In this document: positions 53,957 through 64,000 of the stretch, piece after piece | Layout: every line of letters begins with the position of its first letter | Numbering within the stretch: the first letter of the stretch is position 1 | Source: Saprospiraceae bacterium | Lineage (GTDB): Bacteria > Bacteroidota > Bacteroidia > Chitinophagales > Saprospiraceae | Length of the DNA: 64,000 bases | Assembly: GCA_027486765.1 (NCBI GenBank) | Contig: JAIXOO010000139.1 | Location: 1 to 64,000, forward strand | Direction of reading: 5' to 3' | Made by a program: the position numbers and the translations under genes | Notes under the pieces: model-generated | What the model saw: only the letters and a program-made list of their open reading frames with translations | Database searches by the model: none | Told to the model about the DNA's origin: nothing

Positions 53957-54451
53957 TCAGGAGGCTTGCTCCTTTCGAAAAATTACCGCCAGTATCATTG
54001 AAATGAAAAATGAAAAAACACATTGGATGACAAAGGTAAAAGCCAGGCTTGAAAGAGAATAACGAGCTTGGATTCTTTCCCTAATCTTGTCTACATCAAC
54101 TTCTAAAACAGCATTCATGAGTTTCAGCTCTGCAATTTCGCCATCGTATTCACTACTTATTTTGTAATCAATCAAGCCAGGGTCGACAAGATTGTACAAC
54201 ACGAACACAATGATGAGTTGCGCAAATGATGAAAAAACAAAGAACCAAAAGGTATAGAGTAGTGTCTGGTGAAAGGCTGCCCACTTCATCTTCCGCCTGA
54301 ATCCATATAACAAATATACCACAAGGCCATAAAAAATCAAATTTTGCACTTGAGCATACCGCTCAATGGCAAAGCCCTCCGGACTGTAGAAATAGGCCAC
54401 CAAGCTAAAAATAGCCCAAATTAAGCCGACCAGAATGTGTTCTGATTTCAT
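53957..54451 (-). CDS. Small membrane protein (DUF4199-like), last gene of the peptide locus
   Basis: A 164-residue protein with four hydrophobic segments (about 8-25, 37-52, 65-90, 132-155) and an amphipathic stretch with SEYDGEIAELKLMNAVLEVD between TM3 and TM4. Topology and length resemble DUF4199 proteins; the match is by eye only. Its ATG overlaps the upstream permease stop (ATGA), so it is translationally coupled to an ABC module and may be an accessory immunity protein. AT-rich like the rest of this region. Confidence 0.65.
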   Translation of the reverse strand: MKSEHILVGLIWAIFSLVAYFYSPEGFAIERYAQVQNLIFYGLVVYLLYGFRRKMKWAAFHQTLLYTFWFFVFSSFAQLIIVFVLYNLVDPGLIDYKISSEYDGEIAELKLMNAVLEVDVDKIRERIQARYSLSSLAFTFVIQCVFSFFISMILAVIFRKEQAS

Positions 54452-55251
54452 TTCTTTGGAAATAACAAACGATTTGTCCCCAGCAAAAAAGCCAATAGGT
54501 GTAGACCAATCACCCACAAAATACTATACATTTCATAGGTAAATAGCTTTAAAGCATAAGGATGGGTATTCCCCTGATTTGCGGTAAAATTTACTGCTGA
54601 TTTTAAGGCATAAGCAGTTGGGAGGTAATTCATTTTTGAGGGAATAATAAAACCCGAAAGCCAAAACAAAAACGAGCACATCAATGCAAAGGGGAAATGT
54701 TTCAATCGAAAATTGATTAATAAAAGTAAGGTAAGTATGCCCATTTGATTGATAAAAAAAACAACAGCAAAGTAAGCTTGCTGGTCTAAGGTAGCGGCAA
54801 AGGAGTAGGCATTAAGCTCTGGTTTATTGGCAGCTCCGTTGATGTAAGCACTAATTCCCATTGCTATGGAACAAAACAGAACCAGAACAAACAGGTAGGC
54901 AATCATCGCCCAGAACTTCTGTAAAAAGAATTTATATTGGGTCTCAGGTAAAACAGACCACAATAAAAAAGCGCTGTTTTTATGTTCGACATACATCATT
55001 AGAACTGGAAGAAAAAAGCAAAACAAAGGCCATACGATTACATTGACGAGGCGACAACCCGACAAAAACGCATACCACAAGTTAGGAATTTGGCTTGATC
55101 CAAAGATGGCATATTCCATTTTCAATTCAGTATCAAAAGTATAGCCAATCAAAAAGGTCGCAAGTGCGCTACAACAAATAAAAACAACCAGGGTTTTCCA
55201 TTTGAGCAGCTTGTAGGTTTCATTGGCAACAATTAATGCAAGGTTATTCAT
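54448..55251 (-). CDS. ABC-2 permease, putative immunity subunit (LanE/LanG-like) 2
   Basis: A 267-residue membrane protein with six predicted helices and a short N-terminus (NLALIVANETYKLLKWKTLV) typical of lantibiotic-immunity permeases, where a soluble helix precedes TM1. Segments include LVVFICCSALATFLIGYTF, YAFLSGCRLVNVIVWPLFCF and YEMYSILWVIGLHLLAFLLG. It follows the first permease by 24 bp. In LanFEG systems two such permeases and one ATPase expel the peptide from the membrane. Assignment to immunity rests on gene order. Confidence 0.75.
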   Translation of the reverse strand: MNNLALIVANETYKLLKWKTLVVFICCSALATFLIGYTFDTELKMEYAIFGSSQIPNLWYAFLSGCRLVNVIVWPLFCFFLPVLMMYVEHKNSAFLLWSVLPETQYKFFLQKFWAMIAYLFVLVLFCSIAMGISAYINGAANKPELNAYSFAATLDQQAYFAVVFFINQMGILTLLLLINFRLKHFPFALMCSFLFWLSGFIIPSKMNYLPTAYALKSAVNFTANQGNTHPYALKLFTYEMYSILWVIGLHLLAFLLGTNRLLFPKK

Positions 55252-55275
55252 AGCACCATCAGATTAGGATAATGA

Positions 55276-56019
55276 TTACATAAAATACCGCAATGCACTT
55301 TCTTTTTTTAGAAAATAGATAGCGATGAAACAGTACAACACAGCTATTCCAGCAACAACCAAAACATCAGTCATCGTACTGTTGAAACTAAATAAAGCTC
55401 CGTAGGGTAAATATTGGTATGGCATAAAGAGGCCTAAGCAGCCAATTAAAAAAGAAAAAAACTGATTCTCTTTCAATCTAGTTGATAGCCAAAAGTGGAA
55501 AAAAATGAACTTACTAAAAGCAAAAACAGAAAAAAAATACCACAGGAAGTATTTAGAACCGTTCTCTTGGTACATCTCATTTTTGAAAAGGAAATCATAT
55601 TTTTCTATGATTATGGGCTTGGCAATTGCCAGTGTACTCACCCACAGCAAAGAATAGACGACCAAAAATACCAAAAATACCAAATATAGCTTTGACAATA
55701 AAATATGAAACAAAGACTGCGGCAAGGTCAACAATCGCCGCCAATTGTGGTGTTGACTTTCAATATAAGCTACAACTAAAATGAGTACCAGCAATATCAA
55801 GCTCGAAACCAAAGAAAGATTAAGGGCGAATCGGTGTAAAAGAAGATCCCAGGCATTGCTTTCATGCATAAACTCGACCCATATGTTGTAATGCTTCAAA
55901 AAACCATTGGTCAGTTTTAGCATAAGCAATACATAAAGACCAATCAATACAAGCAAACTATACCAAAAAAGGGGATGTCGAAATAGTTTTTTCGCCTCAA
56001 TCCGTATTAATTCTACCAT
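55276..56019 (-). CDS. ABC-2 permease, putative immunity subunit (LanE/LanG-like) 1
   Basis: A 247-residue membrane protein with six predicted helices. It begins MVELIRIEAKKLFRHPLFWY, the amphipathic lead-in and first helix of this permease class; VSSLILLVLILVVAYIESQH and FFSFLIGCLGLFMPYQYLP are further helices. The start chosen overlaps the ATPase stop by 23 bp, and an upstream ATG is also in frame. It forms a tight ATPase-permease-permease-accessory set downstream of the peptide genes. No substrate motif; immunity role inferred from context. Confidence 0.75.
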   Translation of the reverse strand: MVELIRIEAKKLFRHPLFWYSLLVLIGLYVLLMLKLTNGFLKHYNIWVEFMHESNAWDLLLHRFALNLSLVSSLILLVLILVVAYIESQHHNWRRLLTLPQSLFHILLSKLYLVFLVFLVVYSLLWVSTLAIAKPIIIEKYDFLFKNEMYQENGSKYFLWYFFSVFAFSKFIFFHFWLSTRLKENQFFSFLIGCLGLFMPYQYLPYGALFSFNSTMTDVLVVAGIAVLYCFIAIYFLKKESALRYFM

Positions 56020-56926
56020 TTTGAGCCTGTTTTGCAAGGTAATAATGTTCAAGAGAGAATGGAACTTGCGCTGATTTTGACAATAGGGAATTCAAGCCCA
56101 TGTCGAATTCTGCCACAAAATTCCCTTCTTGTACCGGGAGAAGAAAACGAATAAGCTTCCCTTCTTGATAATACAAACCATCAATAGACGCATTGCGGCA
56201 ATAAGTGTTTATTTCCTCCTGATTTTCGGGGCTTTTATCTATTTCAAATGCCGTATATTTTTTGAGTACTTGCGCTTTATCAAAAAAATCAATTATTTCA
56301 CCCTCTTTAAGAATGGCTATCGTGTCCGCCATTTTTTCCACTTCGCCTAAAATGTGCGTGGTGATAAAAAAAGTGCATTTTTTGGCATCATTAAGCTCTT
56401 GAACTAAGTTTCTGAATGCAATCACTCCCTGAGGATCCATCCCATTGGTAGGTTCATCAAAAATGATGATCTCTGGCTTGTGGACGATGGCCATGGCTAG
56501 CCCTAGACGCTGTTTCATACCCATAGACAAATTAGCTGCCCTTTTGTCCAACTCGCCCGATAGCCCCAATAGTTGTGCTGCCTCGACAGGATAATGTTTG
56601 GGCACCTTAAAATACCGGGCATGCAAGCTTAAGTTTTCTAGCACAGATAGGTGGCCATAGAAGGCCGCTTGCTCAATAAAAACGCCCATCAAGGGAATCA
56701 ATTTTTTCCGATTTTGGGGGTTCATTTCTATGCCGTTGATGCTCACGGTTCCATTATTTGGGCCGATTAGCCCCAATAATAGTTTAATCAGCGTAGTTTT
56801 TCCTGCACCGTTTGGGCCAACTAAATAAAATATTTGCCCCTCATTTATGTGGAGAGAAACATTAGCGAGGATTGATTTACTTGGGCTAATGTTGTATTCT
56901 AAAGCATCCAATCGTATTTTCTCCAT
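55997..56926 (-). CDS. ABC transporter ATP-binding protein, LanF/BcrA-like
   Basis: A 309-residue ATPase: Walker A GPNGAGKTT, Q-loop MGVFIEQAAFYGHL, a slightly unusual signature LSMGMKQRLGLAMAIVH, Walker B IIIFDEPTNGMDP and H-loop TTHILGEVEK. The LSMGMKQR signature and FIEQAAFYGHLSVLENL are typical of LanF/BcrA peptide-resistance ATPases. The C-terminal ~90 residues are a beta-rich accessory region. The frame is open 48 codons further upstream (to 57070) with an odd Leu/Arg/His-rich extension; the ATG giving MEKIRLDALEYNISPSKS is preferred because it places the ATPase core normally. Confidence 0.85.
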   Translation of the reverse strand: MEKIRLDALEYNISPSKSILANVSLHINEGQIFYLVGPNGAGKTTLIKLLLGLIGPNNGTVSINGIEMNPQNRKKLIPLMGVFIEQAAFYGHLSVLENLSLHARYFKVPKHYPVEAAQLLGLSGELDKRAANLSMGMKQRLGLAMAIVHKPEIIIFDEPTNGMDPQGVIAFRNLVQELNDAKKCTFFITTHILGEVEKMADTIAILKEGEIIDFFDKAQVLKKYTAFEIDKSPENQEEINTYCRNASIDGLYYQEGKLIRFLLPVQEGNFVAEFDMGLNSLLSKSAQVPFSLEHYYLAKQAQNGRINTD

Positions 56927-57171: not shown

Positions 57172-57384
57172 TTAACTAACAGTAACAGGCATCCACACTC
57201 CATTCAAATTGATTGAAACAACAACAGAGTAAGATCCATCGGAACAATACCACGCTGTCACCCGAAGGTCACCAGATTTAACTCGACTTAACACTTTGCA
57301 TGTGGCTTGTGCAAAAATGCTTGAAGAAACTAAGACTAACGCTAGAAGTAGAGCGTAGGCTTTAGATTTAAATAAATTTTTCAT
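57172..57384 (-). CDS. Small Sec-exported two-cysteine peptide
   Basis: A 70-residue protein. A signal peptide (KSKAYALLLALVLVSSSIFA) with cleavage near AQA leaves a ~45-residue mature part beginning TCKVLSRVKSGDLRV, then TAWYCSDGSYSVVV and ending VWMPVTVS. Two cysteines could form a disulfide. It is located between the thioredoxin protein and the immunity-like ABC genes. It has no GG leader, so it would be exported by Sec, unlike the precursors. It may be an immunity protein, a second effector or an inhibitor; no family recognised. Confidence 0.65.
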   Translation of the reverse strand: MKNLFKSKAYALLLALVLVSSSIFAQATCKVLSRVKSGDLRVTAWYCSDGSYSVVVSINLNGVWMPVTVS

Positions 57385-57479: not shown

Positions 57480-58703
57480 TCAATTCCCTCGGATCATCTC
57501 TGCCAACTTATCCCAATTCCCCGCCGGATTCCCTCTCCAGCGCACTTTCATATTAGAATCGAGCAAAATGGCATGAGGAATACTTTTTCCTGGATTCAAA
57601 AAAGCTCTCAGCACTTTACCGGCATAGCCCTGCGTCCAGGTCATGTTGTGTTGAGTAATCATCTGCTTCACATGATCTGCGCGGTGGTCTCCTTCATTAA
57701 GGCTAATCACCTCCAACACTGCTGTATTTTCAGCTTGAAAAGCCGCTAATTGAGGCATTCCTCGAAGGCAGGGTCCACACCAGGTAGCCCAAAAGTCAAT
57801 CAAAATAAATTTACCATTCTGGCGGCTGTACAAACTTTCCAGTTGATTGTTATCTACCGAGTAAAAGGAAAAATCGGGCAATGTTGGGGCTAGTTCAATG
57901 TTTTTGCCTACTAGATGCTGATTCAATTTTTGATCGGCATACTGTACACTGTCTAATGTGCCAAAATTGATGCTGCGAAGGCGAGGGAGGATGGGGTCGA
58001 TTGGGCCTGGAGTTATTTTGTGAATACTTTTATGATTCTGAATACCTTTAGCATTCATCTCACTTTTTAAAATTACACCTTTGGGGGTGAATATAGAGTT
58101 GAAAAAATACGGAAGCTGTTGTGATTCATCGCTTGGCAATTCTTCTGTAATCCAATAGCGATAAGGCGTACTGTTGGGTGGGGTACTAAAGGGGAGTTCA
58201 TATTCTTGACTGAGGTAACCTCCAATTATTTCTTTACTCCCTCTGAGTTTTTTTAGTTTGGAGTAATCCAAGTTAAACAACTCACTCACTTTAATTTTGT
58301 CTCGCCAATTGGGATCAGAAGCATTCTTCTCTAAAGACTCTTCTAATGCTTTAAGATTGCTAATCATAGTACGCCCTCCACTATAATGGTCAATGACTTC
58401 TGCGTGAAAACCAGCTTGAAAATTGATTTTATGAATCTCTTTTTCATCATTCAAATAGGCTTCCTCCCAAATACTATCCTGCTTTATATAAGTTCGAAAT
58501 CGTACAGAATCCGCTTGAAAAAATTGAAGTTTTTTATCATTTGAACCCAAACTTTTCAATCCCATTAGTATCTTTTCTCTAAAGCCTTGTTCATATTTAA
58601 ACACTATTGTATATTCCAAAACTCCTTCAAATCCAGCTTGTTGTCCAAAGCAAAAGAAGAGTGTAATAATGTATAGAGTAAGGATTAGCAAAAATCTTTT
58701 CAT
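57480..58703 (-). CDS. Exported GLPGLI-like / TlpA thioredoxin fusion, copy 1
   Basis: A 407-residue protein with signal peptide (FLLILTLYIITLFFCFG). Residues about 25-250 resemble the GLPGLI-type domain of Bacteroidota (FEGVLEYTIVFKYEQGF, then YRYWITEELPSDESQQLPY and FFNSIFTPKGVI). The C-terminal TlpA/thioredoxin domain has DFWATWCGPCLRGMPQL with active site CGPC (309-312) and a cis-proline region KSIPHAIL. It follows precursor peptide 1. The C-terminal ~180 residues are about 90% identical to copy 2, while the N-terminal domain is much more divergent. Likely a periplasmic thiol oxidoreductase acting on the adjacent Cys-containing peptide (inference). Confidence 0.85.
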   Translation of the reverse strand: MKRFLLILTLYIITLFFCFGQQAGFEGVLEYTIVFKYEQGFREKILMGLKSLGSNDKKLQFFQADSVRFRTYIKQDSIWEEAYLNDEKEIHKINFQAGFHAEVIDHYSGGRTMISNLKALEESLEKNASDPNWRDKIKVSELFNLDYSKLKKLRGSKEIIGGYLSQEYELPFSTPPNSTPYRYWITEELPSDESQQLPYFFNSIFTPKGVILKSEMNAKGIQNHKSIHKITPGPIDPILPRLRSINFGTLDSVQYADQKLNQHLVGKNIELAPTLPDFSFYSVDNNQLESLYSRQNGKFILIDFWATWCGPCLRGMPQLAAFQAENTAVLEVISLNEGDHRADHVKQMITQHNMTWTQGYAGKVLRAFLNPGKSIPHAILLDSNMKVRWRGNPAGNWDKLAEMIRGN

Positions 58704-58717
58704 TTCTTGAAAATTAA

Positions 58718-58769
58718 ATTCCAGATTGTAGTTTAGTGAAACCTGTTTTCACCAACTACAACCTGGAAT
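58718..58769. promoter_or_regulatory. Hairpin between precursor 1 and its thioredoxin gene
   Basis: ATTCCAGATTGTAGTT (58718-58733) pairs with AACTACAACCTGGAAT (58754-58769) with one wobble. It lies 16 bp past the precursor stop. It is likely a partial terminator or 3' stabiliser that makes the peptide mRNA more abundant than the downstream gene. Confidence 0.75.
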
Positions 58770-58785
58770 ATTTAATAAAACTCTA

Positions 58786-58965
58786 CTATCCTGGTTGGCA
58801 TTGAAGTGTATACGTCCCCCCGTGCCCAAACACGGAATACGTTTCAAGTAAGGTCATGCCTTGTCTAGAATTTTGTGTCATTACAACCGCTAAGACCGCT
58901 TCAATTTGACTACACAGGATACCCCCTTGTAGCGCCTCCAAATTTTCATTTGATAAAACTTTCAT
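58786..58965 (-). CDS. GG-leader precursor peptide 1 (59 aa, bacteriocin-like)
   Basis: The peptide begins with leader MKVLSNENLEALQGG, a classical double-glycine leader for C39-peptidase exporters. The predicted mature part is 44 residues starting ILCSQIEAVLAVVMTQ and ending TYSVFGHGGTYTLQCQPG. Cysteines are at 18 and 56 of the precursor. Precursor 2 shares the leader, the ILCSQI start and the FGHGGTYTLQC end, while the middle differs. No Ser/Thr-rich lanthionine pattern and no modification enzyme are present, so a single disulfide is the likely modification. Too short for routine gene calling. Cleavage after GG15 is predicted. Confidence 0.85.
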   Translation of the reverse strand: MKVLSNENLEALQGGILCSQIEAVLAVVMTQNSRQGMTLLETYSVFGHGGTYTLQCQPG

Positions 58966-59000
58966 TGTTTATGAATTTAGTTGTGAAAAAATCAAATACT
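58966..59000. repeat. Duplicated leader segment before precursor 1
   Basis: A 29-base stretch starting atgaatttagttgtgaaaa and ending tcaaatac at 58971-58999 is identical to 60497-60525, where it spans the end of the C39 exporter gene. It marks the border of the tandem precursor-thioredoxin duplication. Confidence 0.85.
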
Positions 59001-59026
59001 TTCAGCGTCACCCATTCCTCACACAA

Positions 59027-60244
59027 TCAATTCCCCCGAACCAGTTCCGCCAACTTACCCCAATTTCCCGCCGGATTCCCGCGCCAACGTACCTTCAGGT
59101 TGGAGTCGAGCAAAACGGCATACGGAATGGTTTTTCCTGGATTCAAAAAAGCTTTCAGCACCTTACCGGCATAACCCTGTGTCCAGGTCATGTTGTGTTG
59201 AGTAATCATCTGCTTCACATGATCTGCCCGGTGATCGCCTTCATTAAGGCTAATCACCTCCAACACTGCTGCATTTTCAGCTTGAAAAGCCGCTAATTGA
59301 GGCATTTCTCGAAGGCAGGGAGCACACCAGGTAGCCCAAAAGTCAATCAAAATAAATTTACCATTCTGGCGGCTGTATAAACTTTCCAGTTGATTGTTAT
59401 CTACCGAGTAAAAGGAAAAATCGGGCAATATTGGCGCTTGTTCAATGTTTTTGACCTTAAGATGCTGATTCAATTTTTGGTCGGCGTACTGTACACTGTC
59501 CAAAGTGCCAAAATTGAGGCTGCGAAGGCGAGGGAGAATGGGGTCAATTGGGCCTGGAGTTATTTTCTGTAGAGTTTTATAAGTCTGGACGTACTTAGTT
59601 TTTATTTCACGTTTTATGATTGAGCCTTTCGGCGTAAAAATCGAATTAAAAAAGTAGGGAATTTGTTGTTCGTCTCCTCCTATCAAATCTTCAGTTATCC
59701 AATAATAATAAGGTGTACCATCTGGAATGCTGGGAGGTAATTCGTATACCTGGCAAAGATAGCCCTGGATCATTTCTTTACGTCTGGCCAATTTTTTCAG
59801 CCTTGAATAGTCCGTTTTGAACCACTCACCTACTTTGATTTTTGCTCGCCAATTGGGATCATTAGTGTTTTTGTCTAAATGGTCTTCAATTTCTTTGATT
59901 TTACCAAATATTGTTCGATTTCCGCTATACAGGTCAATTGTTTCCGCCTGAAAACCAGCCTGGTAGTTGATTTTATCTATTCCTGGTTCATCATTTAAAT
60001 AATGCTCCTCCCAAATACTATCTTGTCGAATGTAGCAACGAATGCGGGTGGAATCGGCATAAAAAGGTTTAATTTGTCGTTCAGTCCAGCCAGCGTTTCT
60101 GAAGCCGTTGATGGTTTTTTGAAGGTAATCTGGATCATGTTTATAGATGATGGTGTATTCTATAATGCCCTCGAAAGTATGATTTTGAGCATAAAGTGCT
60201 GGTAAAAAAAGGTGAATTAATAAAATTAGGTTCAGGTTTTTCAT
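59027..60244 (-). CDS. Exported GLPGLI-like / TlpA thioredoxin fusion, copy 2
   Basis: A 405-residue protein from the ATG giving MKNLNLILLIHLFLPALYAQ (signal peptide). The N-terminal GLPGLI-like domain reads FEGIIEYTIIYKHDPDYLQK and YYWITEDLIGGDEQQIPYF. The thioredoxin domain has CAPC (307-310) instead of CGPC, in FWATWCAPCLREMPQL. CxPC changes shift redox potential, so this paralogue may behave differently. It follows precursor 2 and is itself followed by precursor 1, so the pair has been tandemly duplicated. An in-frame TTG three codons upstream is not used. Confidence 0.85.
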   Translation of the reverse strand: MKNLNLILLIHLFLPALYAQNHTFEGIIEYTIIYKHDPDYLQKTINGFRNAGWTERQIKPFYADSTRIRCYIRQDSIWEEHYLNDEPGIDKINYQAGFQAETIDLYSGNRTIFGKIKEIEDHLDKNTNDPNWRAKIKVGEWFKTDYSRLKKLARRKEMIQGYLCQVYELPPSIPDGTPYYYWITEDLIGGDEQQIPYFFNSIFTPKGSIIKREIKTKYVQTYKTLQKITPGPIDPILPRLRSLNFGTLDSVQYADQKLNQHLKVKNIEQAPILPDFSFYSVDNNQLESLYSRQNGKFILIDFWATWCAPCLREMPQLAAFQAENAAVLEVISLNEGDHRADHVKQMITQHNMTWTQGYAGKVLKAFLNPGKTIPYAVLLDSNLKVRWRGNPAGNWGKLAELVRGN

Positions 60245-60268
60245 GCAATACAATTTTTTATATAAAAT

Positions 60269-60299
60269 GTGGATAGAGGTTAACTCGTCCTCTACCCAC
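60269..60299. promoter_or_regulatory. Hairpin between precursor 2 and its thioredoxin gene
   Basis: GTGGATAGAGG (60269-60279) pairs with CCTCTACCCAC (60289-60299) with one mismatch, 18 bp past the precursor 2 stop. Same position as the hairpins after precursors 1 and 3 but with unrelated sequence. Confidence 0.72.
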
Positions 60300-60317
60300 T
60301 ACACTCAAGAGTTATTC

Positions 60318-60491
60318 TTAGTCACATTGCAATGTGTACGTTCCCCCATGTCCAAATATCGAGTAGGTTGTTAGCAAGACATGATACTGATCAGGTTTTT
60401 CGTCCAGCAGGTGTTGCATTACTGCTCCGATTTGACTGCACAGGATCCCCCCTTGTAGCGCTTCCAAATTTTGATTCGGTAAAACTTTCAT
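60318..60491 (-). CDS. GG-leader precursor peptide 2 (57 aa, bacteriocin-like)
   Basis: Leader MKVLPNQNLEALQGG followed by a predicted 42-residue mature part: ILCSQIGAVMQHLLDEKP at the start and TTYSIFGHGGTYTLQCD at the end. Cysteines at precursor positions 18 and 56 align exactly with precursor 1. The middle (about residues 22-40) differs completely between the two, as expected for diversifying toxin or signal peptides with a constant scaffold. It lies 26 bp after the C39 exporter gene and 73 bp before the copy-2 thioredoxin gene. Confidence 0.85.
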   Translation of the reverse strand: MKVLPNQNLEALQGGILCSQIGAVMQHLLDEKPDQYHVLLTTYSIFGHGGTYTLQCD

Positions 60492-60517: not shown

Positions 60518-62656
60518 TCAAATACCTACAGACTCCCCTATTTCGCTCACAATCATTTGCCCTTCAATTTTGTACACCTTATCCACCCCATCCAAGAGGT
60601 CACTCCGATGCGTAAGCAATAAAATGCCCATCCGGGATTTTAACTGCATTAAGATCTGGTGTACAAAGGCTTCAGCACTTTGATCCAAGGCTGAACTGGG
60701 CTCATCTAACAGCAACAATTGTGGTTGTTTCCACAAGGCTCTGGCCAATCCAATTAGTTGTTTTTGGCCACCGGAAGGGCTGATTCCATTTTGACCGATC
60801 AGGGTGTTGACCCCTTGAGGGAATTTATCGAAATAAGGCGAAAAGCCATACTGCTCCAAAAAGTCAAAAAAAAGCTGGGGGCTTTCAGGTATACTCCCAA
60901 ACAAAATATTTTCCGCCAATGAGCCATTGAAAATTTTCACTTCTTGCTCCACTACACCCAAGCAGTTTCTCCAAGCACTAGTAGCAATCAAGTCCAGATC
61001 GATGCCGTTCACTTTAATTTTACCTTGTTCCTGCTTGTAAAATTTTTGGAGGGTTTGTAAAAGGGTACTTTTGCCGCTGCCTGTTTCACCCATGAGCACC
61101 ACCAGTTCCCCTTTTTTTACAGAGAGACTTACTGATTCGAGCAGGGGGTTGCGTCCAGGAAAACGAAAACTGAGGTTTTGCACTTGCAATTCCTGAAAAT
61201 CTTTGACCTGGGCCAAATCTTGCTCGGTATTTGGATCAAACTCGGCCTGCAGCCCGGTGAACTCCTTCATCCGATCAAAAGCCACCCGCGCCTCTTGCAA
61301 CTGGATATTGGTCATGGCCAGCCTGGATGCGGCCGCAATCAGCATTCCGGACATTTGGAGTACGGCCATCAGGGATCCCACGGTCATCCCTCCGCGCAAT
61401 ACATGCCACGAAATGTAGAGCAACAATAAACCAGTAAAAACTGAGCTAAGCAACTCCGTCCAAAATCCAAAGTTCATTCCCACTTTGCCCAGTTCCAACG
61501 AACGTTGCTGAAAAATGGCATACACATTTTTGAGCGAATGGATGAAATGGGTTTCCCGGTTAAAAAGCTTGATGGTTCCCGCACCTTGAACTGCCTCCAC
61601 AAAAGTGCTTTCCGCATTGCTGTAACTTATCATGGCCTCTTTTTGGCTTTTCAATATGGGTTGATGATAACGCCAGGCTATCCAAAAGAACAAAGGCAGC
61701 CAGGCCAACATCACCACACCCGTCACCCAATTGTAGCTTAAGCCTCCGATGAGGACCACCAAAATCATCAAAAGGTCAATGGTACTGGAGGCCGACAATT
61801 GGCTTACTGTTCTTTGGATGCGAGAGGTATCATGCATGCGGGCAATCAGGTCTCCTGTGCGTCGATTGTCAAAAAAAGCTTTGGGTAGATGCAGCAGAGA
61901 CTCAAAAAAATACTGCACAATGCGCAAGTTAAAATCTCGGGCTTGTCGCAACAAAAACAATTGCCGGACATAGCCCAAGGCACTTCGGGCAAATAAGAGC
62001 ACCAAGAGCAGGCTTATACCCCCATACAAACGTACGTAATCCTTCTTGGGCAAAATATGATCGATCAATTGTTGGGAAAATACCGCTGTGCTGATGCCAA
62101 GAATGGCCAAAACCACCCCAATGACCACCGCCATACCCAATAAATTCAGGTCTTCCTGCAAAAATGACCACATCCAGCGCCATTGACTTTGGGGGCTATT
62201 TTTTTCGGCTTGTGGTGCGTCAGCAGGGAATTTAAAAAGCAGTAGTGTTTTGGATTGCCATACATCATCTAATTCTTCTGCGGTATATTCTTCTACCATC
62301 CCTTTCCCCGGGTCACTGACGATGTATCGCTGCAGGGCTTCATCGTAGCCCCAGTACACCAGATAATGGTAGAAATTGTTGCTTACAATGTGCAGGATAC
62401 AAATGTCTGCACAGGCTTTGAGGCTATCCAGATCAGCTTCGTAGCCGTCTACTTCCAGCCCGGTTTGGATGGCTGCCTGTTTTAGCCCCAACATGGTTGT
62501 GCCCGAGGCATTGGTGCCACTCCAATCGCGGAGTTGCTCCATGGATATGGTTTTGCCCCAATACTTGAGAATGGTTTGAAGGCAGGCTACTCCACAATCG
62601 GCTTGGTCGTGTTGGCGGACGGTGGCGCGTTGGAGTTGTTTGTAGGGGATGGTCAT
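60518..62656 (-). CDS. Peptidase-containing ABC exporter (C39 peptidase, PCAT)
   Basis: A 712-residue fusion. The N-terminal C39 cysteine peptidase (1-140) has catalytic Cys21 in QADCGVACLQTILKYWG, His97 in FYHYLVYWG and Asp115 in YIVSDPGKG. Six transmembrane helices span about 170-450. The ATPase domain has Walker A GETGSGKST (523-531), signature SPSGGQKQLIGLARAL and Walker B LLLLDEPSSALD. It would cut the GG leaders and pump the cores across the inner membrane. No HlyD or TolC gene is in the window; they may lie beyond the right edge. The stop lies 26 bp before precursor 2. Confidence 0.93.
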   Translation of the reverse strand: MTIPYKQLQRATVRQHDQADCGVACLQTILKYWGKTISMEQLRDWSGTNASGTTMLGLKQAAIQTGLEVDGYEADLDSLKACADICILHIVSNNFYHYLVYWGYDEALQRYIVSDPGKGMVEEYTAEELDDVWQSKTLLLFKFPADAPQAEKNSPQSQWRWMWSFLQEDLNLLGMAVVIGVVLAILGISTAVFSQQLIDHILPKKDYVRLYGGISLLLVLLFARSALGYVRQLFLLRQARDFNLRIVQYFFESLLHLPKAFFDNRRTGDLIARMHDTSRIQRTVSQLSASSTIDLLMILVVLIGGLSYNWVTGVVMLAWLPLFFWIAWRYHQPILKSQKEAMISYSNAESTFVEAVQGAGTIKLFNRETHFIHSLKNVYAIFQQRSLELGKVGMNFGFWTELLSSVFTGLLLLYISWHVLRGGMTVGSLMAVLQMSGMLIAAASRLAMTNIQLQEARVAFDRMKEFTGLQAEFDPNTEQDLAQVKDFQELQVQNLSFRFPGRNPLLESVSLSVKKGELVVLMGETGSGKSTLLQTLQKFYKQEQGKIKVNGIDLDLIATSAWRNCLGVVEQEVKIFNGSLAENILFGSIPESPQLFFDFLEQYGFSPYFDKFPQGVNTLIGQNGISPSGGQKQLIGLARALWKQPQLLLLDEPSSALDQSAEAFVHQILMQLKSRMGILLLTHRSDLLDGVDKVYKIEGQMIVSEIGESVGI

Positions 62657-62666
62657 GGCGGAAAGG

Positions 62667-63881
62667 TTAATGATTACGAATGATTGATTCTATCTCACCC
62701 CAATGCTGAGCAGGATTTCCCATCCATCGAATTTTCATTTGGTCATCCAGTAAAACAACAAAAGGGATTGTTTTGCTAGGGTTTAGAAATGATCCTAACG
62801 CTCGCCCCGCGTAAGCTTGCTGCCATGACATGTTGTTTTTCTGAATAAAATTTTGTACAAAATCTTCGCGATGATCTCCTGTATTGAGCCCAATTATCTC
62901 TAAAGTAGCTGCGTTTTTTTCACCCAACTGTCGAATAATGGGGAAGTCCTTGATGCAGGGGCCACACCAAGTAGCCCATAAATCCAGTAACATGAATTTC
63001 CCACTGCCTCTCTGGGTGTACAAGTTCACTGGCTCTGGCTTTCCGACTGGATAAAATGAAAAGTCAGGGACAATCGAAGCATTTTCAATGTTTTTTCCTT
63101 TCAAGTGCTGATTGATGTCTTCATCGGCGTATTGAAGGCTATCTAAGGTGCCTAAGGTTAAATTTTTTAGACGAGATTGTATTGATCCGATGGTAGTTGG
63201 CTTTATTTTAATTATAGAGGACTGTTGCGAAATGCCTTCCGACTGCCATTCGGAGCTCATCTTCAGCCCAAATGGTGTGAAAAAAGTATTGAAAAAATGT
63301 TGCTGTTGTTGATTTTTAGCAAACTTGAAGTCTTCAGCAATCCAGTGCAAGCTGACACTTCCTGTTCGCTTCGGATTATACTCTTGATAAAGTGTACAAG
63401 TGTAACCCTCAATTATTTTTGTTCTATTTTTTATTCTTTTGTAATTGGAATAATCAGCATTGAGCCAACCGCCCAAATCCTTCGTATTAGGCGAATTCTT
63501 TTGAGTTTGAGCATCTAATTCATTTTCTATTGGTTTTGCGCCCAGCACTATTTTTAATCCTGTTGATGGATTAATGATTAAAGCATAATCATTGGCTTGG
63601 TAATAATTTCTTTTTGTTTCTAAAGAATAAGTAGAAATTTGCTCAGCCCACAGGCTATCTCCTTTGAAGAAATAGGTAGCTTTAATTGAGTCAATTTTTT
63701 GAACTTTTTCAGCCAATTTGTACATTCCAATTGCATTTAATTTATCGGCTAATGCTTTTTTTGAATTTTCATTTTGTTGCGCAATAGTCAGAACTTCTAT
63801 CACGCCTTCAAAAGTTTGATTTTGAGCCAACAAAGAATGCCCAATGCAACACAACAAATAAATCAATGCGAATTTCATCAT
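62667..63881 (-). CDS. Exported GLPGLI-like / TlpA thioredoxin fusion, copy 3
   Basis: A 404-residue protein with signal peptide (MMKFALIYLLCCIGHSLLAQ). The N-terminal domain FEGVIEVLTIAQQNENSKKA and LHWIAEDFKFAKNQQQQHFF parallel the other copies but are far more divergent. The thioredoxin domain has CGPC (306-309) in DLWATWCGPCIKDFP and cis-proline KTIPFVVLL. It lies 10 bp upstream of the C39 exporter gene, so it is co-transcribed with it, and directly follows precursor 3. It represents the oldest of the three precursor-thioredoxin pairs. Confidence 0.85.
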   Translation of the reverse strand: MMKFALIYLLCCIGHSLLAQNQTFEGVIEVLTIAQQNENSKKALADKLNAIGMYKLAEKVQKIDSIKATYFFKGDSLWAEQISTYSLETKRNYYQANDYALIINPSTGLKIVLGAKPIENELDAQTQKNSPNTKDLGGWLNADYSNYKRIKNRTKIIEGYTCTLYQEYNPKRTGSVSLHWIAEDFKFAKNQQQQHFFNTFFTPFGLKMSSEWQSEGISQQSSIIKIKPTTIGSIQSRLKNLTLGTLDSLQYADEDINQHLKGKNIENASIVPDFSFYPVGKPEPVNLYTQRGSGKFMLLDLWATWCGPCIKDFPIIRQLGEKNAATLEIIGLNTGDHREDFVQNFIQKNNMSWQQAYAGRALGSFLNPSKTIPFVVLLDDQMKIRWMGNPAQHWGEIESIIRNH

Positions 63882-63900
63882 AGGATCAATATTTGTATGG

Positions 63901-63948
63901 TTTCTAGTGGCCCTAGAGCTTTTGGTTAAGCTCTAGGGCCACTAGAAA
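63901..63948. promoter_or_regulatory. Perfect 20-bp hairpin between precursor 3 and its thioredoxin gene
   Basis: TTTCTAGTGGCCCTAGAGCT (63901-63920) pairs perfectly with its complement at 63929-63948 around an 8-base loop. It starts 8 bp past the precursor 3 stop. It is the strongest of the three post-precursor hairpins; a weak terminator that lets some transcription pass to the exporter is likely. Confidence 0.8.
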
Positions 63949-63956
63949 AGTGGACA

Positions 63957-64000
63957 TTAAACGGGAGTACAAAGTGTGTATCCGTTATCTATCAAGTCGA
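63957..64000 (-). CDS. C-terminal end of a third precursor peptide (cut by window edge)
   Basis: The last 13 codons read DLIDNGYTLCTPV then TAA. The GYTLC ending parallels GTYTLQC of precursors 1 and 2, and the position (hairpin, then thioredoxin gene) is the same. The leader lies outside the window, so GG processing cannot be confirmed. A chance reading frame is possible. Confidence 0.6.
   Translation of the reverse strand, partial: DLIDNGYTLCTPV

Follow-up and report, generated by a model that had tools for sequence, protein, structure and literature searches.

In the sections of Coyne et al. 2019 (PMC6671954) drawn on here, the region encoding a bacteroidetocin (class IIf) is described as containing genes for a protein with five transmembrane segments, a peptide with a double-glycine leader, a thiol oxidoreductase and a peptidase-ATP-binding cassette (ABC) transporter. 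According to the same sections, Bacteroides is without a general disulfide machinery, the locus-encoded thiol oxidoreductase is the likely catalyst, and the producers are reported without immunity proteins. By analogy, PedC, a thioredoxin-like protein of the pediocin operon whose co-expression raised pediocin potency (PMC4919988, in its excerpted form), may be taken as a precedent for a redox helper. Here we describe a locus in a 64,000-nucleotide stretch of DNA from a Saprospiraceae bacterium (C241:1-64000 of a 7.72-Mb draft genome; the whole stretch is referred to as the window), in which each peptide precursor is followed by a gene for a secreted fusion protein (T1, T2 or T3), made of a variable N-terminal domain (N-domain) of ~200 residues and a thioredoxin-like redox domain. 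Comparison of sequences indicates that a peptide gene and the front half of its partner were swapped as one block, the redox back half being shared.

By gene content, the locus resembles a bacteroidetocin locus. All four gene kinds were found. A class IIf region has a leader of 15-16 aa ending in GG and a short core with at least two cysteines; here precursors 1, 2 and 3 have 15-aa double-glycine leaders, and the short cores have two cysteines. The exporter has a C39 peptidase domain (C39-ABC exporter), and the set is completed by a thiol oxidoreductase and by a protein in which five hydrophobic segments are predicted. The peptides are probably antibacterial. On the minus strand, the order of transcription is precursor 3, T3, the exporter, precursor 2, T2, precursor 1, T1 and the ABC-2-type transporter genes. 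Unlike the bacteroidetocin region as presented in those sections of PMC6671954, the locus has several precursors, and a glycosyltransferase gene and the ABC-2-type transporter adjoin it. What is unusual is that every window precursor has an extra fusion behind it, in which a DUF4412-like domain is joined to a thioredoxin domain. Cassettes of this sort were not seen in the searches made of the literature on bacteroidetocins, bacteriocin-linked oxidoreductases, blp loci and bacteriocin gene conversion.

Results

A block exchanged between cassettes

T3 was compared with the corresponding array of G199, a genome of the same genus (draft in ~420 contigs). The G199 array reads precursor A, fusion A, precursor B, fusion B, precursor C, fusion X, precursor X, exporter and fusion D; it lies on two contigs (L031 and L030) that were taken as neighbours, fusion X seeming to be split by their ends. 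Up to residue 283 of T3, 299 informative sites were B-like and 6 X-like; from residue 290 on, 102 were X-like and 6 B-like, a switch that was reached by none of 2000 shuffles. The trees conflict in the same manner: the N-domain tree rejects a grouping of T3 with X (approximately unbiased test, p-AU 0.0001), and the redox-domain tree rejects one with B (p-AU 0.002). Along the gene, synonymous differences were low and then high for T3/B, and high and then low for T3/X.

The other end of the block lies just upstream of precursor 3. The redox 3' end preceding this precursor matched cassette C at 174/187 positions and B at 65/136, and the spacer that follows matched C at 34/42 and B at 17/42. In the 40 nt that immediately precede the start codon the counts were 35/40 to C and 30/40 to B: the C-like letters end at -21 and the B-like letters start at -7, with single B-like letters further upstream. 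The upstream breakpoint is thus 7-21 nt before the start codon of precursor 3, and the downstream one at about residues 283-290 of T3. A breakpoint inside the leader was ruled out by the site-by-site comparison. The leader itself is nearly the same in both cassettes (45/45 to B, 44/45 to C), and the core matches B at 135/135 positions and C at 67/132; precursor B is the same protein as precursor 3. A type-B unit, consisting of precursor, spacer hairpin and N-domain, therefore sits between cassette C/X flanks.

Between the two genomes, the swapped unit showed 8 synonymous changes at 207 sites (0/37 in the precursor and 8/170 in the N part). For eight neighbouring genes the proportion of synonymous differences (pS) was 0.14-0.39, and the exporter, with 100/470, differed from the unit at Fisher p 6e-10. 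Fewer synonymous changes in the unit than around it imply a more recent exchange of the block between lineages than of the DNA on either side. With no more than 68% of residues shared between the redox domains of B and X, G199 is unlikely to be misassembled at this cassette. The joint transfer of precursor and N-domain suggests a match between each front half and the peptide encoded with it.

T1 and T2 are mosaics

It had been predicted from the DNA letters that the redox halves of T1 and T2 are near-identical and their N-terminal halves diverged, and this is what was observed. Among 405 aligned residue pairs, 106 differences fell in the first 225 and 17 in the last 180. Divergence along the genes was not uniform: nucleotide identity in 40-column windows climbed from 0.52-0.73 to 0.84-0.97. 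Before the PDFSFY motif, identity was 59% and pS 0.683; from the motif on, the values were 92% and 0.263. A Max-chi2 scan placed the breakpoint at residue 229, near the border of N-domain and linker (chi2 128.6; differing sites 254/678 to the left, 49/537 to the right). None of 2000 permutations reached this chi2, the largest being 23.5. The orthologous pair T2/D, used as a control, gave a weak signal (chi2 12.7, reached by 26/2000 permutations). The first 225 residues of T1 and T2 are still 53% identical, and their N-domains are diverged homologues, not unrelated sequences.

As synonymous differences fall along with the amino-acid differences, recombination, and not selection alone, made the redox halves alike. 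The original prediction had invoked gene conversion or recent recombination; the recombination stands, but the event was not very recent. The redox-domain pS for T1-T2 (0.26) is similar to the between-genome values (0.21 for T1-D, 0.28 for T2-D), which makes the event about as old as the split of both genomes.

A hypervariable N-domain was ruled out by the T2/D comparison, in which the proportion of nonsynonymous differences (pN) was 0.068 in the N part (pS 0.317) and 0.046 in the C part. Such similar constraint on both domains implies that the N-domain is not evolving fast in place, and its variety seems to arise through exchange of old types.

Precursors 1 and 2 have, as predicted, constant ends and a variable middle, with matching residues at 19/21 positions of the leader end, 5/20 of the middle and 14/15 of the tail. 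The upstream DNA and the leader are alike in nucleotides. The tail carries several silent differences, and its constancy accordingly looks like selection.

Co-variation of precursor and N-domain

Distance matrices were correlated for six precursor/fusion pairs, with precursor C paired with fusion X; since the pairs are few and T3/B is nearly one pair, the permutation numbers are only indicative. Distances between cores correlated with those between N-domains at 0.80 (reached by 2/720 permutations) and with those between redox domains at 0.40 (58/720), and N-domain and redox domain correlated at 0.59 (27/720). When pair A was left out, the core/N-domain value was 0.96 (2/120) and the core/redox domain value 0.56 (10/120). 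Co-variation of N-domain and precursor, which the original prediction had anticipated, is thus found in these pairs, and in T3/B the two moved jointly and the redox domain did not.

Precursors, cysteines and hairpins

The six distinct precursors of the array family have cores of 39-44 aa with exactly two cysteines each. When 20 cores, chosen by eye from lists of open reading frames (ORFs), were counted, all had an even number of cysteines and 18/20 had two; the count omits L140:10638-10856 (a single core Cys), three near-copies in L154, precursor B and the peptides near the membrane-protein relatives. At L154:7174-8708 (G024), four nearly alike double-glycine precursors with cores rich in cysteine precede a C39-ABC exporter, the one that was counted having six Cys. 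A precursor profile matched 3 precursors in G000 and 4 in G199, and at E <= 1 none in the three other genomes of the genus.

In the window, 73-82 bp separate precursor and fusion. Hairpins were predicted in the spacers 3' of seven precursors (three in the window and four in G199, six distinct sequences), with z from -2.5 to -9.7. No shuffle among 200 folded as well for five spacers; 1/200 did so behind precursor C and 6/200 behind precursor 2. Two spacers upstream of precursors, taken as controls, had no hairpin (z 0.02 and 0.06). It may be noted that two G199 spacers were folded minus their last 20-30 nt, that the spacer behind precursor C extends into the start of fusion X, and that the gene following the spacer of precursor X is the exporter. 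The hairpin of precursor 3 is common with that of precursor B, and the sequences differ in the other cassettes. The hairpins may keep the precursor message above that of the enzyme.

Family and distribution of the N-domain

T1, T2 and T3 all hit Redoxin (PF08534) and Thioredoxin_8 (PF13905) above cut-off, and WCxPC and an aligned Pro, as read from sequence, are kept in 11/11 fusions of alignment A3; we take this Pro to be cis from the fold. The N-domain gave no Pfam or NCBIfam family above cut-off (T1-T3; nine N-domains). The best matches of the nine were DUF4412 (PF14371, E 0.0088) and LppX_LprAFG (E 0.015), one member each, with unrelated families in the same weak-hit list from E 0.026 up. 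Among NCBIfam hits up to E 10 for T1-T3 and the nine N-domains, no model named GLPGLI was seen, the model being assumed to be in the library. An N-domain profile matched a G065 protein (9.2e-6) that passes PF14371 (35.8 bits, cut-off 21.6), and hhalign gave a probability of 66.8 over 55 columns. A remote relationship to DUF4412 is suggested by these matches. A search of PDB sequences with the profile returned a single chance-level hit (E 0.98), and no literature match was found for DUF4412, nor for GLPGLI together with double-glycine.

In a family sample of 298 genomes, the N-domain profile matched 8 at E <= 1e-4, four of them of the genus hosting T1-T3; the four others (G065, G100, G158 and G210) have stand-alone relatives of the N-domain. 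Full-length fusions were found at E <= 1e-30 in 3/298 genomes, all of the same genus. Class-wide, a full-length search matched 8/395 genomes at E <= 1e-22 (own included), and outside the own genome only the redox part was matched. Both fusion searches scored 4 or 6 candidates per genome, so that misses are possible. A scan of named-species contigs with a generic redox motif gave at least 80 loci, and across the 6836 ORFs of L034-L122 the sole match of the N-domain profile was L042, which is the window's own genome.

G100, which belongs to another genus, has two stand-alone relatives (one of 100 aa only) in a locus that also contains double-glycine precursors and a five-segment protein relative. 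The E-values at this locus were 3.4e-11 and 8e-11, and the hhalign probability was 94.6 over 58 columns. Their presence there connects the N-domain with peptide loci of this type even where no redox domain is attached. The same genome has a short ORF (L140:12515-12976) with, by eye, an oxidoreductase-like start and an exporter-like end and with no Pfam hit; it is an internal deletion or an assembly join.

Fusion genes also occur as tandem pairs with no double-glycine precursor (L032:7201-9744 and L033:7757-10206), and a partial gene is present at L141:1-495; G247 has a partial fusion gene. The large gene beside the fusions in L033 and L141 presumably encodes a GH95-type glycosidase.

Related loci

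A class-wide search with the membrane protein matched 13/295 genomes, own included. Thirteen regions of other genomes around its relatives were inspected, and at the cut-offs applied four also have thiol oxidoreductase and exporter, seven have neither, one (on a short contig) has the oxidoreductase only and one an exporter-like gene (E 2.2e-12) only. The N-domain was absent at E <= 0.01 from these 13 regions. Relatives of the exporter were found at E <= 1e-120 in 8/298 genomes, own included, and the neighbourhoods of seven loci from six genomes (G018, G116 twice, G024, G176, G153 and G157) were read. Peptides with cysteines and a double-glycine-like leader lie near the exporter in 7/7, the membrane protein in 6/7 and the oxidoreductase in 5/7.

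Features of the locus

Coordinates are collected in Table 1. Downstream of T1, the second ABC-2 permease has no Pfam family above cut-off. The ATPase and both permeases lie directly downstream of the array in G199 too, and this transporter is a possible self-protection exporter. Between T1 and these genes is a small ORF (57172-57384) with a signal-peptide-like start and two cysteines, not seen there in G199.

Upstream, beyond the window, are the remnant R4, the glycosyltransferase, the thiol oxidoreductase and the five-segment membrane protein. R4 (64222-64473 of contig C241; L021:10220-10489) is a truncated redox-domain copy that reaches the end of the glycosyltransferase gene; its nearest relative is the redox domain of G199 fusion B, and it is a decayed cassette. 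The UDP-glucosyltransferase-like gene (L021:10381-11748) is kept at the locus in both genomes, and its product might modify the peptides.

Table 1. Positions of genes and spacers at the fusion locus (window numbering unless a locus is named)
Feature	Position	Strand	Remarks
ABC-2-type transporter genes	53957..56926	-	ATPase, ABC2_membrane_4 permease, second permease, DUF4199 protein; downstream of T1
T1, secreted fusion	57480..58703	-	variable N-domain ~58017-58643; TlpA/ResA-like thioredoxin domain (WCGPC, conserved Pro) ~57483-57881
Spacer with hairpin, precursor 1 to T1	58704..58785	-	-29.3 kcal/mol, z -7.16, 0/200 shuffles as stable
Precursor 1	58786..58965	-	15-aa double-glycine leader, 44-aa core, Cys 3 and Cys 41
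T2, fusion like T1	59027..60244 (ATG at 60244)	-	N-domain ~59564-60187; thioredoxin domain (WCAPC) ~59030-59425
Spacer with hairpin, precursor 2 to T2	60245..60317	-	-18.3 kcal/mol, z -2.50, 6/200 shuffles as stable
Precursor 2	60318..60491	-	15-aa double-glycine leader, 42-aa core, Cys 3 and Cys 41
C39-peptidase ABC exporter	60518..62656	-	PF03412 (E 2.5e-28), PF00664, PF00005; expected to cut double-glycine leaders and export
T3, fusion	62667..63881	-	N-domain and linker to ~residue 283 (63033-63824, after signal peptide) like G199 fusion B
T3 thioredoxin domain	62670-63014	-	from ~residue 290; like fusion X
Spacer with hairpin, precursor 3 to T3	63882..63956	-	-39.0 kcal/mol, z -9.68, 0/200 shuffles as stable
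Precursor 3, 3' part in window	63957..64000	-	gene extends to contig position 64136, beyond the window
Thiol oxidoreductase gene	L021:11761-12276		AhpC-TSA, E 3.1e-11
Five-segment membrane protein	L021:12273-12983		five hydrophobic segments (Kyte-Doolittle scan)

Discussion

The reading that we prefer, with a probability of roughly 0.55, is that the locus encodes bacteroidetocin-like peptides with cognate N-domain-redox partners and gains new types by block swapping. The peptides carry a double-glycine leader, and one probable disulfide would close the core. The C39-ABC exporter would cut the leader and deliver the core to the periplasm, where the N-domain may bind its own core and the CxPC redox domain may make or correct the single Cys-Cys bond. 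Recognition of a specific peptide by the N-domain, as the original prediction had it, would fit these data. New peptide types would arise when homologous recombination swaps the block of precursor, hairpin and N-domain, with the upstream DNA on one side and the redox domain on the other staying constant. The sequences establish the mosaic, the recombination, the block with its breakpoints, the two cysteines, the domain make-up and the neighbouring genes; binding and its specificity, the disulfide chemistry and the antibacterial action are inferred. We propose more tentatively, at slightly less than even odds, that this is a polymorphic bacteriocin system. Each peptide would then be exchanged as a single cassette with a recognition domain dedicated to it, slotted in beside a constant redox engine; a new peptide would thereby come with a maturation specificity of its own, and homologous recombination would carry such cassettes from lineage to lineage.

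Several observations weigh against cognate partnership. A structure model of T1, built from the three window copies, had a mean predicted local distance difference test score (pLDDT) of 36.6 and so gave no view of a binding site. Hypervariability of the N-domain is not seen between the orthologues T2 and D. Distances between leaders correlate with those between N-domains at 0.72 (12/720), almost as those between cores do and as linkage predicts; precursor and N-domain, being neighbours, would be inherited together even if they did not bind. All that is left of precursor 2 in G199 is its first five codons, and D nonetheless keeps a constrained N-domain, though the deletion may be recent. Behind precursor X of that genome comes the exporter instead of a fusion, and the tandem fusion pairs E0/E and F0/F (G199, G018) have no array-family precursor nearby. 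The N-domain or a fusion was found in 0/7 of the exporter loci read in related genomes, despite their cysteine peptides. Finally, the separate thiol oxidoreductase of the same locus could already make the bond.

Uneven selection alone, with the redox domain conserved and the N-domain diverging, would need no recombination, and the redox domain is indeed slightly more constrained in the T2-D pair. It was nevertheless refuted, and we consider it extremely improbable: synonymous differences track the amino-acid ones, in opposite directions in T3/B and T3/X, and the tree conflict is significant both ways. Recombination could also have operated with no specificity, precursor and N-domain travelling together merely as neighbours and exchanges ending where the sequence is alike, within the redox domain and around the start of the precursor. 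Both breakpoints are indeed found in or beside alike stretches, the spacers between precursor and fusion measure 73-82 bp in the window, and the leader co-varies with the N-domain too. Such an account leaves unexplained why every precursor of the window comes with a separate fusion although a single redox protein would be enough, and why the N-domains are under sustained constraint; moreover, no exchange ending between core and N-domain was seen in the only two mosaic events examined. We judge it unlikely.

A cognate role of the N-domain in immunity or sequestration is a serious rival, though in our view similarly unlikely. With a periplasmic fold like that of LppX or DUF4412, the N-domain would bind and neutralise the producer's own peptide while the redox domain reduced or handled the bound peptide. 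Self-protection genes are usually co-inherited with their bacteriocin, the precursor-less copies (D, E0/E, F0/F) look like the orphan immunity genes known from elsewhere, and the N-domain has the weak similarities to DUF4412 and LppX_LprAFG given above. The fusion to an intact CxPC domain, however, points to thiol chemistry on the peptide, and the adjoining ABC-2-type transporter could itself serve immunity. Bacteroidetocin producers, for their part, are reported in the cited sections of PMC6671954 without immunity proteins.

Each window peptide has its own redox partner on top of the locus-encoded thiol oxidoreductase, and T3/B is a natural domain-swap experiment. The locus supplies matched and mismatched sets of peptide and partner, with which one may ask whether enzymes of maturation can be dedicated to a single core, and it may offer a way of pairing new cores with their helpers.

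Like PedC, BdbA and BlpGst as described in the excerpted PMC4919988, the fusions are CxxC proteins of the thioredoxin fold linked to a disulfide-bonded bacteriocin, in our case a putative one; they differ from that description in their variable N-domain and in the presence of one fusion per window precursor. The C-terminal domain of T1-T3 is like TlpA/ResA-like thioredoxins in its Redoxin and Thioredoxin_8 hits, its WCxPC motif and its conserved proline, from which the proteins depart by the extra N-domain. In polymorphic toxin/immunity modules such as CdiA-CT/CdiI, a toxin part and its cognate partner are exchanged as a block beside a constant region. The window cassettes are alike in that peptide and partner part are exchanged as one block, but here the block has a constant region on both sides, the upstream DNA and the redox domain, it ends inside the second gene, and the partner is a fusion enzyme.

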